DNA from: Planomonospora sp. ID67723
GTDB lineage: Bacteria > Actinomycetota > Actinomycetes > Streptosporangiales > Streptosporangiaceae
Assembly (NCBI RefSeq): GCF_015711605.1
Contig: NZ_JABTEZ010000001.1
Coordinates: 62,001 to 126,000 of the forward strand
DNA: 64,000 nt
Reading direction: 5' to 3'
The notes under the pieces were generated by a model, which saw only the letters and a list, made by a program, of their open reading frames with translations, was not told the DNA's origin and made no database searches. Numbering within the stretch: position 1 is the first letter of the stretch; every line of letters starts with the position of its first letter. Shown piece after piece: positions 4,397-7,241 of this stretch. The position numbers were made by a program, and so were the translations under genes.

Positions 4397-4930
4397 CTAA
4401 CTCGTTCTGACGGAGTTGCCGGGCTTCTGCGGGCTCAGGCACTCCTCGGCCTCGGCCACGAGCGCGTCCACGAATCCGCCCAGCTCGGCCGAGGTCAGTA
4501 CGGCGCGCAGCCCCACCCCACCACTCCCCCATGCCTCCAGGAACGCCCTTCTGGTCAGCCGCCACTCTCCGGACGGCCCTCGCCCGCCGGGGATCCAGAC
4601 GGGGATCGTCCGCAGCCGGCAACGGAGCTCACCCCCGCCGACCAGGCCGTTCCTCGTCCGATAACGAAAAGCGAACAGTTCTTCCTCGTCCGGCAGATCG
4701 GGAAAGCGGTCGTCCGGATCGGGCCACGGCCCGCCTCCCTCCGCGCGGGCCTTCGCGACGCCCCTGGCCAGCCGGGTGAGGAACCATCCGCATCGCTCCC
4801 CCACCGTGCCGTAGGGCGCGCCGTCACGATGGAGTTCGAGGGTGACCTCGTAGGGCGAGCCCACACTGTCCCGGCACGCGACGGGAGTAACCGTTAGATA
4901 CGATCCGTCTACGCAGCGTAGTCCACCCAC
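4397..4930 (-). CDS. Hypothetical protein, last gene of the MNIO operon
   Basis: 177-aa protein I do not recognise. The GTG start at 4930 lies one base after the stop of the partner gene at 4932, so it belongs to the same transcript as the TIGR04222-MNIO-partner genes. It is soluble-looking, with no signal peptide or membrane helix, and contains Cys at several positions (RCVDGSY, ACRDS, ERCGWF, LRCRL, EECLS). The acidic segment PDPDDRFPDLPDEEELF lies near its middle. Good coding statistics and tight coupling support a real gene. It could be an accessory protein of the modification system or a downstream hitchhiker. Confidence 0.7.
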   Translation of the reverse strand: MGGLRCVDGSYLTVTPVACRDSVGSPYEVTLELHRDGAPYGTVGERCGWFLTRLARGVAKARAEGGGPWPDPDDRFPDLPDEEELFAFRYRTRNGLVGGGELRCRLRTIPVWIPGGRGPSGEWRLTRRAFLEAWGSGGVGLRAVLTSAELGGFVDALVAEAEECLSPQKPGNSVRTS

Positions 4931-4931
4931 G

Positions 4932-5417
4932 TCAGTGAAGGTATCCCCATACCGCTCGCCAAAACGTTCTCACCCGCGACCGGCGTCCCGGAGCCGGGGG
5001 CGGAGCGGTCTGTCCGGAGACGCGGCCCGCCGCCCTGAGCGCCTCGGCGAAGTCGTGGGCGTCGGCGCGGGAGCCCCCCGGAGGCTTGGGACGACCCCGG
5101 GCGTAGGCGGTGAACTCGGCCGCGAACTCGCCGCCCAGCGTCCGGACGAGGTCCGGACGGAGCCGGGCCACCGCCCCCCGCCGTTTGGCGATCAGGCTGG
5201 ACTCCTGGATCCGCAGCCGCTCCTCGTCGAACCCCGGCGGCGCCTGCCCGCCCGCCACCAGGGCGGCCAGCAGCTCGGCCTGGGCCCTGGCCAGCTCGGC
5301 TCGGACGTCAGGGCCGGCCTCGGACACGGAGGGGGACACGGAAAGAGGCACAGAAGGGGACGCGGAAGGGGGCACAGAAGGGAGCGCGGAAGGAGACGCG
5401 GGACGGAGCTCAGACAC
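4932..5417 (-). CDS. MNIO partner protein (SCO6045-like C-terminal domain)
   Basis: 161-aa small protein directly downstream of the DUF692/MNIO oxidase. MNIO enzymes usually need a small partner protein to recognise their substrate; position and size suggest that role here. The GTG at 5417 overlaps the oxidase stop, giving translational coupling; longer upstream extensions run inside the oxidase gene and look like shadow translation. An N-terminal Pro/Ser/Val low-complexity linker (about residues 5-30, encoded by 12-bp tandem repeats) precedes a helical domain with [16 protein letters not shown] and [21 protein letters not shown], then [26 protein letters not shown] recall such proteins next to DUF692/TIGR04222 pairs in Streptomyces, but cannot verify it here. 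Confidence 0.8.
5322..5405. repeat. Degenerate 12-bp tandem repeat in the partner gene
   Basis: About seven imperfect copies of a 12-bp unit (consensus GGACACGGAAGG on the + strand) stand head to tail from 5322 to 5405. They encode the Ser-Pro-Ser-Val/Ala linker of the partner protein and stay in frame because the unit is a multiple of three. Confidence 0.8.
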
Positions 5418-6243
5418 GGGCCATCGCCCCGCGGATCCGGCCGAGCTCGGCCTCCAGGGCCTCGTCGCTGGGGTAGTCGGCGTCCCACTCCAGCAGCACG
5501 CCGGGCGGGTCCACCCGGGCGCAGAGCTCCGCCAGGACGTCGAGCACGTCGTCCGGGACACGCGCGGTGTGGGTGTCGTGCCAGACGCCGCCGTGCGAAT
5601 GGCCCCCGGCGACGTGCACGTAGGCGAGCTCGGACAGCGGGAGGACGTCCAGCGCGTCCACGGCCCGAAGACCCAGGTTGACCTGGTTGGTGTAGAGGTT
5701 GGCCACGTCGACGAGGAGTTTGACCCCGGTCGCGGCGACCAGCTCGCCGAGGAACTCCGCCTCGGTCATCTCGTCCTCCGGCCAGCCGAACAGCGCCGCC
5801 ACGTTCTCCAGGGCCAGGGGCACGCCGTCGAGCGCGTCCTGCGCCCGCCGTACGTTCTCCGTCACGACCGCGAGCGCCCGCCGGGTCCGCGGGACCGGGA
5901 GCAGGTGACCGGCTTCCAGGCCGCCCGCGCGCACGAAGGCCAGGTGCTCGCTGACCAGCGGCGACCCCAGCGCCTCCGCGCACGCCGCCAGGTGCGCCAG
6001 CCTGTCCGGGTCCGGCGGCTCGGCGCCGCCGACCCCCAGCCCGACCCCGTGCGGGATCACCGGCACCCCCCGGGCGCGGAGCACCCGCAGCGACTCGGGC
6101 AGCCGGTCGGGGCGGATGTTCTCCGCGACGACCTCGACGAAGTCCACACCGGGCAGCCGCTCCACGGTGAGATCGATCTCCGGCCGCCAGCCGATGCCGA
6201 CCCCCAGCGACGCGGCCGCCGGCCCGGTCAGCGGATCAGTCAC
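5410..6243 (-). CDS. DUF692 / MNIO family multinuclear iron oxidase
   Basis: 277-aa TIM-barrel protein of the DUF692 family (MbnB, TglH and ChrH relatives), which use two or three iron atoms and O2 to remodel cysteine residues of ribosomal peptides. Conserved metal and substrate segments are visible in order: [66 protein letters not shown] followed by DTHTARV, and LLEWDAD near the C-terminus. The GTG at 6243 is preferred over upstream codons because GGAGG lies five bases before it and it begins 29 bp after the TIGR04222 stop; this gives the usual family length. Neighbours suggest the substrate is the Cys-rich tail of the preceding gene product. Confidence 0.9.
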
Positions 6244-6272
6244 CACCGCCTCCGCCGCAGCAGGTTCTTCCG

Positions 6273-7241
6273 TCAGCCGCCACCGCAACCACCTCCGCAG
6301 CCACCGCCACCGCAACTGGAACCACCGCCGCAGCTGGAGCCTCCGCCGGAGTCACCCGAGCCGCCGGAGTCACCCGACCCCCAGCCGCCGCCGAAGTCGC
6401 CGCCGCCGGAGGAGGAGTCGCCGGAACCGCCGCCGCAGGCTCCGCCCACGGAGCCGCCCGACGAGTCGTTGCGCTGGAGCTCGTCGCTCAGGTAGGGGTC
6501 GCCGAGCTCGCCGAGGCCGTACAGGGCCACCGGCGCGCCGACGGCGAAGGCCAGGTCACCGGTCACGGGATGGGCGCCGCGGACGTGGACCCGGCGGGCG
6601 GAGTCGAGCACGTCGTGCCCTGCCTTGCTGACCACGCCGCGCATGGCCCGCTTGCGCCGCCGGTAGGACAGCAGCCCCGCCCCCGCCGTGACGAGGCCGA
6701 TCAGGAACGCGATCGGGACGAGATCGACCGACAGGCCGACGACGAGCGTGCCGATCGTGAAGACCGCCGCGAGCACCGAGACGGTCAGCAGGCGGTTCAG
6801 CAGCTTCCACGCCTGGCCGAGCGCGCCGTCGGGCAGCAGCAGGCCCTGACCGAGCAGGTGGTAGCGCAGGCCGCTCATGGCCTGCCCGTCGGCCACCGTA
6901 CGGCGCAGCTCGCCGACGGCGCAGGTGCCGCCGCGGGCGGCGAGCGCCTCCAGGACGGCCTGCTCGATCGGGTCGGGGGAGGGCGGCGCCCCGGCGACGA
7001 GGCTGATCTGGCCGCCCCGCGAGACCCGGATGCCACCGCCCTTGGCCAGCATGCCGAGTGCGGTGTTGACCGTGCGGAGCGGCCCGCCGGACAGGTAGGC
7101 CAGCTCATAGGGGGTGAGCCGGCCGCCGCGATGACCCGTGCCCGCCTCGCGGACCCTGCGGTGCTCGGCGCTCAGCGCCGTCGCCGTGGTGAGGGCCACC
7201 ACGGCGAACGCCGCCGCTATGACGACCAGTGCGACTCCCAT
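6273..7241 (-). CDS. TIGR04222-type membrane protein with Gly/Ser/Cys tail
   Basis: 322-aa protein. The ATG at 7241 follows GGGAGG by seven bases. It has an N-terminal membrane helix (residues 2-22), a cytoplasmic winged-helix-like segment (about 40-140; [11 protein letters not shown] is the TIGR04222 signature), two more membrane helices (about 150-195), a second globular part, and from about residue 258 a low-complexity tail of Gly, Ser and Asp with Cys at 269, 304, 310, 315 and 319. The last four Cys occur in [21 protein letters not shown]. Such tails resemble RiPP cores, and the next gene is an MNIO oxidase acting on Cys in known cases. I infer that this is a membrane-anchored substrate; no cleavage site is evident. 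Confidence 0.88.

Follow-up and report, generated by a model that had tools for sequence, protein, structure and literature searches.

In a 64,000-nucleotide stretch of the genome of the soil actinomycete Planomonospora sp. ID67723 (contig NZ_JABTEZ010000001.1, positions 62,001 to 126,000; called the window below), a gene for a TIGR04222 membrane protein with a Gly/Ser/Cys tail precedes genes for a multinuclear non-heme iron-dependent oxidase (MNIO, DUF692) and its partner protein. Our reading, which we consider probable, is that the MNIO and its partner rebuild the cysteines of the TIGR04222 tail, that this tail faces the cytoplasm, and that it binds metal, copper being the likeliest. The basis for this reading comes from sequence and consists of the gene order, the fusion of partner to MNIO, the portability of the tail, and the co-distribution of tail Cys and MNIO genes.

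An initial annotation of this DNA had called such a modification possibly undescribed, and here it was overtaken by the literature, since both the pairing and the inference are already in Antoine et al. 2025 (PMC12452194). According to that paper’s passages on TIGR04222, more than 1,000 proteins carry Cys, lack a signal sequence and are encoded ahead of an MNIO gene; 40% of them belong to TIGR04222, and subsets of these TIGR04222 proteins are proposed as MNIO substrates. The TIGR04222–MNIO–PME-type 2 clusters described in those passages have the same protein types and the same proposed substrate as the window. The substrate inference is therefore not new; our comparisons make the published proposal stronger and testable, and add a separate tally of Cys tails, a partner count, a set of mini-proteins and a cytoplasmic placement of the tail. 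Titles and abstracts of the literature searched reported no experimental test of the TIGR04222–MNIO pairing; TIGR04222 as a term came up there in this paper and in a genome paper of 2016.

Open reading frames and profile searches gave the layout that the initial annotation had claimed, with all genes on the minus strand in the order TIGR04222 gene, MNIO gene, partner gene and a fourth gene. The TIGR04222 gene (6273..7241, 322 amino acids) scores 125.3 bits against an NCBIfam cut-off of 43, and its stop lies 26–29 bp from the MNIO start, depending on which MNIO start is chosen (6243 or 6246). The MNIO gene (5410..6243, 277 amino acids) scores 262.6 bits for PF05114 against a gathering threshold of 25. 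Across 143 aligned sequences, read on the window MNIO, there are conserved His, Asp, Glu and Asn columns, which we take to be the iron ligands. Its best NCBIfam model is BufB (188.2 bits, under the cut-off of 310), followed by HvfB (144 bits, also under cut-off), and the MbnB model gives 37.7 bits against a cut-off of 325. The Planomonospora venezuelensis MNIO is 94% identical to it. The partner gene (4932..5423) overlaps the MNIO stop, as had been claimed, if it starts at the GTG at 5423; the overlap is not certain because the gene caller preferred 5339. The host genome as a whole contains one MNIO, one TIGR04222 protein over the cut-off and one weak TIGR04222 match.

AlphaFold2 modeled the TIGR04222 protein (mean predicted local distance difference test score, pLDDT, 83.1) with long helices at residues 2–32, 138–168 and 175–200, the last of them followed by short ones, and with disorder throughout the tail at residues 262–322 (6276..6458, pLDDT below 50). 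The tail Cys lie at 269, 304, 310, 315 and 319, exactly where the initial annotation had them, and are the proposed modification sites; a sixth Cys, at 107, is in the folded part. Between the first and second transmembrane helices (TM1 and TM2), the AlphaFold2 secondary structure suggests two winged-helix-like units (residues 44–131, 6849..7112), a region that matches HTH_20 with E 0.008, under that model’s own cut-off. A Foldseek comparison of the TIGR04222 model with solved structures gave no significant match. In the tails of 80 named loci, kept from 123 relatives found, Gly makes up 52% and Ser 21% of residues, and Gly directly follows Cys in 298 of 318 cases.

These named loci indicate how regularly the genes occur together. 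TIGR04222, MNIO and partner are all present in 74 of the 80; five of the remaining six end at a contig edge, and the sixth, L158, is without TIGR04222. Judged by its gene content, the trio is a real, recurrent unit, beyond chance. A Cys tail, defined throughout as at least two Gly/Ser-flanked Cys within the last 60 residues, was present within about 5 kb in 74 of the 75 loci with a called TIGR04222 gene, and an open-frame search added L196. The others are L164, with a single such Cys; L158, where TIGR04222 is missing; and L152, L189 and L211, which run off the end of a contig.

A profile built from 14 separate partners matched the C-terminal extension of all 26 long MNIOs at the class loci (E 3e-18 to 6e-42). 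Altogether, each of the 43 class loci with an MNIO of the TIGR04222-adjacent cluster encodes the partner domain, 26 times fused, 14 times as a separate gene and three times by six-frame search (E 3e-33, 2e-28 and 1e-9). The domain was also found at 15 of 20 further MNIO loci (one of them, L127, matched in one profile search only), the other five carrying other MNIO kinds, and at 78 of the 80 named loci, the other two ending just past the MNIO. Six-frame searches recovered what the gene caller had missed, namely the partners of L087, L070, L079 and L117 and the TIGR04222 gene of L196. In the window, the partner directly follows the MNIO and its model is helical (pLDDT 80.3); sequence and fold comparisons of it with solved structures in the PDB gave nothing significant, the second-ranked Foldseek hit being 7dz9_C at E 3.9.

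The window partner may be DUF2063-like and of the PME-type 2 kind, a kind defined by a fold resembling DUF2063, no DUF2063 signature and a gene that follows the MNIO. It has no match to the PME-type 1 signature (the DUF2063 Pfam model), and 7 of 52 relatives match weakly (best E 0.0024). Compared with three DUF2063 proteins, the partner profile reached a probability of 11% (p 0.0027); three unrelated profiles stayed at or below 0.2%. Of the 246 genomes of the class sample, 3 encode DUF2063 itself, each time beside another MNIO kind. The published passages report PME-type 2 partners in at least 10% of TIGR04222 clusters, with many clusters seemingly partnerless (PMC12452194). A partner domain at all 43 class loci, often fused, would explain many of those partnerless clusters, and the paper’s text passages on fusion, among the matches listed, do not mention an MNIO–partner fusion. 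The partner of L200 (Saccharothrix sp. NRRL B-16314, 115 amino acids) corresponds by organism and length only to PME-type 2 example A of that paper’s presented examples.

We then compared the occurrence of Cys tails with that of MNIO genes. TIGR04222 passes the cut-off in 71 and MNIO occurs in 62 of the 246 class genomes; of the 71, all but G077, G092 and G166 were examined, which gave 88 places in 68 genomes. A family sample of 161 genomes had 107 over the TIGR04222 cut-off among the matches listed, and 105 were examined (89 new and 16 from the class sample; all but G092 and G582). In MNIO-bearing genomes, the places covered were mainly those near the MNIO. The initial annotation had named Cys tails in genomes without DUF692 as the observation that would speak against its idea. 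Such tails were found in 0 of 16 MNIO-free class genomes versus 38 of 52 MNIO-bearing ones, and in 1 of 37 MNIO-free versus 67 of 68 MNIO-bearing genomes of the whole family sample. Counted by place in the class sample, a same-strand MNIO no more than 3 kb away went with a Cys tail in 34 of 50 cases, an MNIO elsewhere in 7 of 21 and the absence of an MNIO in 0 of 17. Family genomes outside the class sample had one at 73 of 79 MNIO places (60 of 60 genomes), and, where there was no MNIO, at 1 of 34 places (29 genomes). Fisher tests of the link, with relatedness ignored, gave p = 9.7e-5 for the class sample (before G060 was reassigned) and p = 2.9e-21 for the family sample; these values overstate the case because related genomes are not independent. 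The contig of G060 ends inside the MNIO gene start, hence its count as MNIO-bearing. In a phylum sample of 296 genomes, 15 pass the TIGR04222 cut-off, of which 14 are class genomes; the sole other, G306, has its match at a contig start, with the tail beyond reach. The published passages count no MNIO in 490 of 1372 TIGR04222 genomes, about a third, a figure not split by tail (PMC12452194). Counted apart from Cys-free tails, as here, Cys tails closely track MNIO-bearing genomes.

The tail also occurs on a different carrier. Between MNIO and partner, 3 of 35 genomes of family f14, genus g60 (possibly Frankiaceae), encode mini-proteins of 60–90 residues that combine a single membrane helix and an Arg-rich stretch with a Gly/His/Cys tail; in G191 they form a tandem pair. 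The first three had no NCBIfam match and no Pfam match over cut-off; there is a weak fourth match in G111 (E 8e-4). The genomes with mini-proteins also encode a Cys-tailed TIGR04222 protein elsewhere. Because the mini-proteins carry a membrane helix and the same Cys tail, the tail is, as far as these sequences go, a portable module. The absence of a separate short precursor, stated in the initial annotation, thus holds at the window locus and not in some relatives. A scan of 101 loci for other frames with Gly/Ser-Cys tails gave, besides TIGR04222 genes, solely mini-proteins and one TIGR04222-like frame; it covered tails of that composition, not Cys-rich genes of other composition.

Co-distribution, the partner at the loci and mini-proteins with the same tail all favor the tail as the MNIO substrate. 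A stronger form would have every MNIO of this kind accompanied by a Cys tail; 12 genomes of genus g29 (probably Streptomyces) and G129 contradict it. These and several other observations weigh against our reading. Fourteen of the 52 MNIO-bearing class genomes lack a Cys tail: the 12 g29 genomes, in which the MNIO conserved residues are intact and the TIGR04222 copy carries no tail Cys; G129, where a Cys-free Gly/Ser tail adjoins the MNIO; and G190, whose sole MNIO belongs to another kind and has DUF2063 as its partner, and which is also the one MNIO-bearing miss of the family sample. Linkage is not strict: of the 21 places whose MNIO lies elsewhere, 7 have a Cys tail. G031 keeps a Cys tail while its sole MNIO match is without the N-terminal part; at its locus (L097) there is no MNIO, and the Cys-tail frame continues into a partner-like remnant (E 2e-4), an arrangement that looks like recent loss. 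The MNIO-free G657 (L329) has a two-Cys Gly tail on a TIGR04222-like frame with no evident membrane helices. In g29, a gene for 59–82 amino acids with 5–6 Cys recurs near the MNIO at 10 loci and is a candidate alternative substrate. Finally, the neighboring genes, which were clustered and of which few were named, gave no metal link.

Some of these cases would fit a tail that binds metal or acts in redox chemistry with its Cys unmodified, the MNIO substrate being encoded elsewhere and the two co-inherited through shared metal homeostasis. An MNIO unaccompanied by a Cys tail, as in the g29 genomes, and Cys tails unlinked to the MNIO are both in keeping with this explanation. We nevertheless regard it as unlikely, given that Cys tails are nearly absent without MNIO, that G060 has both tail and MNIO and its congener G049 neither, and that the mini-proteins, which are little beyond anchor and tail, are placed between MNIO and partner.

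On which side of the membrane the tail lies is a separate matter. Flanks are net positive after TM1 in 51 of 60 relatives, before TM2 in 43 of 60 and after TM3 in 55 of 60; the TM2–TM3 loop is net positive in 16 of the 60 and net negative in 22. Positively charged flanks mark the cytoplasmic side of a membrane protein (the positive-inside rule). From this charge pattern and rule, we read the tail and, by the same rule, the winged-helix units as cytoplasmic. The AlphaFold2 model likewise has the tail on the winged-helix side of the membrane helices, so that a three-helix topology with the tail facing the cytoplasm is predicted. The published passages place the Cys tail of TIGR04222 in the periplasm (PMC12452194). 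Were that so, a fourth hydrophobic segment would cross the membrane and the modified tail would be exported and act outside the cell like a surface bufferin. The segment at residues 225–244 has a mean hydropathy of 1.33 (1.3–2.2 for the similar segment in many relatives), making a fourth span possible, and about half of the relatives show such a fourth segment in a hydropathy scan. AlphaFold2 gives this region as a 12-residue helix, however, and the segment aligns as only 11–15 residues in some relatives. The mini-proteins have no such segment, only one transmembrane helix and then Arg-rich residues, and MNIO action would be required before export. On balance, we think an exported tail rather unlikely.

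The tailless copies of g29 were looked at further. MNIO decay as their explanation is unsupported because the conserved residues are intact. No Cys-rich substrate was seen between the g29 MNIO and the tailless TIGR04222 gene; the gene there, where present, encodes a DUF4142 protein (assigned by Pfam on one member) with 0–1 Cys. The recurring short gene with 5–6 Cys (for example, L043:11572-11817) sits further upstream and has no Pfam match; its product resembles a zinc ribbon. At 11 g29 loci (L043, L044, L045, L049, L052, L053, L054, L057, L058, L062 and L064), an MNIO–partner fusion occurs with solely tailless TIGR04222, and a DUF4142 gene often lies between the two. We consider it improbable that the TIGR04222 protein serves as a receptor or scaffold through which the MNIO reaches the membrane to act on some other short substrate: its winged-helix units resemble a fold class that serves peptide recognition in RiPP (ribosomally synthesized and post-translationally modified peptide) systems, tailless copies remain beside the MNIO in g29 and the short Cys gene recurs there, but the 101-locus scan, within the tail composition it covered, gave only mini-proteins and one TIGR04222-like frame besides the TIGR04222 genes.

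Returning to modification of a cytoplasmic tail, we envisage the following mechanism. The MNIO would be held with its putatively DUF2063-like partner, as a single polypeptide in many relatives, and would oxidatively rebuild Cys wherever the flexible C-terminal tail has a [Gly/Ser]-Cys-Gly site; this tail would lie in the same compartment as the enzyme. The folded part (TM1, the two winged-helix units and TM2–TM3) would anchor the tail and may present it, thereby substituting for a leader peptide. As to chemistry, formation of the Cys heterocycle of the nearest characterized MNIOs (5-thiooxazole) is likely, and would leave a metal-binding tail at the membrane, with copper as the likeliest metal. 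For a peptide with two repeats, PMC12668002 reports a mass decrease of 8 Da, equivalent to about 4 Da per Cys for thiooxazole. The modification of the tail, its chemistry and its metal binding are what we infer.

Among known systems, methanobactin MbnB/MbnC also combines an MNIO and a partner with a Cys target. The methanobactin system makes a short peptide product, unlike the one proposed for the window. Bufferins and captophorins (EGKCG peptides, PMC12668002) have the nearest characterized MNIO models by score and, in the passages describing them, likewise rely on an MNIO and a partner acting on Cys, often Cys-Gly; their precursors have Sec signal peptides and their partners are DUF2063 proteins with a RiPP recognition element (RRE). 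The window differs in having a multi-span membrane protein, a short partner without the DUF2063 signature and an MNIO under the BufB cut-off. Relative to the TIGR04222 clusters described in PMC12452194, our data differ in having a partner at every one of the 43 class loci, a cytoplasmic placement of the tail and the mini-proteins. The TIGR04222 fold itself has a relative in the DUF2207 membrane proteins, with a profile alignment over 223 columns at a probability of 88.9%, three controls reaching no more than 1.2%. The window protein has no match to DUF2207_C (PF20990, gathering threshold 33 bits) at E up to 1, 13 of 60 TIGR04222 relatives match weakly (best E 2.5e-4), and G017, a weak TIGR04222 place of the class sample, scores 149.7 bits. 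On this profile evidence, TIGR04222 is distantly related to DUF2207. DUF2207 proteins are longer, with an extra N-terminal region, and 6 of the 30 examined have Gly/Ser tails, all six Cys-free.

The four window genes are flanked by a phosphoenolpyruvate carboxykinase gene on one side and uppS–phoH on the other (Pfam). The fourth gene (4397..4930, 177 amino acids) had been suggested as a possible part of the unit and coupled to the partner gene; its GTG does lie one base past the partner stop, although the gene caller chose a start at 4864. We rejected membership as the likely reading, because the homologue in G199 sits beside uppS and phoH on contig C39 and the MNIO unit is on C27. The gene probably belongs to the uppS neighborhood as a syntenic neighbor and not to the MNIO unit. 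It occurs in 6 of 246 class genomes, all of family f1 and all MNIO-bearing, which speaks for a link and leaves some doubt. The protein is well conserved (mean column identity 64% over 25 sequences) and has no Pfam or NCBIfam match, its relatives giving only two chance-level matches; comparison with solved structures by sequence alone gave no significant match.

Other MNIO surroundings were seen along the way. L158 (Nonomuraea sp. NEAU-A123) has a typical MNIO and partner; neither a TIGR04222 gene nor a frame with a Gly/Ser-Cys tail lies within about 5 kb of them. At L380:5049-5455, another MNIO kind adjoins two short peptides with Cys-rich ends (CSGCGSCSGCAH...), to which a peptide end at L126 is comparable. 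L386, L387 and L391 encode long or divergent MNIOs, with a protein of 71–86 amino acids nearby upstream that has a CxxCCSG- or CxxCTSG-like motif.

More tentatively, and with somewhat less than even confidence, we propose an integral membrane protein whose cytoplasmic tail is permanently modified by the MNIO. The outcome would be a stable, tethered, heterocycle-bearing, metal-binding tail rather than a secreted peptide product, and a portable module, single-span mini-proteins included, that is resident in several actinomycete families. The natural MNIO–partner fusions and the mini-substrates of 60–90 residues offer an inexpensive route to in vitro testing. If the proposal is true, the MNIO class would extend past peptide natural products to resident protein modification in multi-span membrane proteins, and a common actinomycete gene pair would acquire a function.

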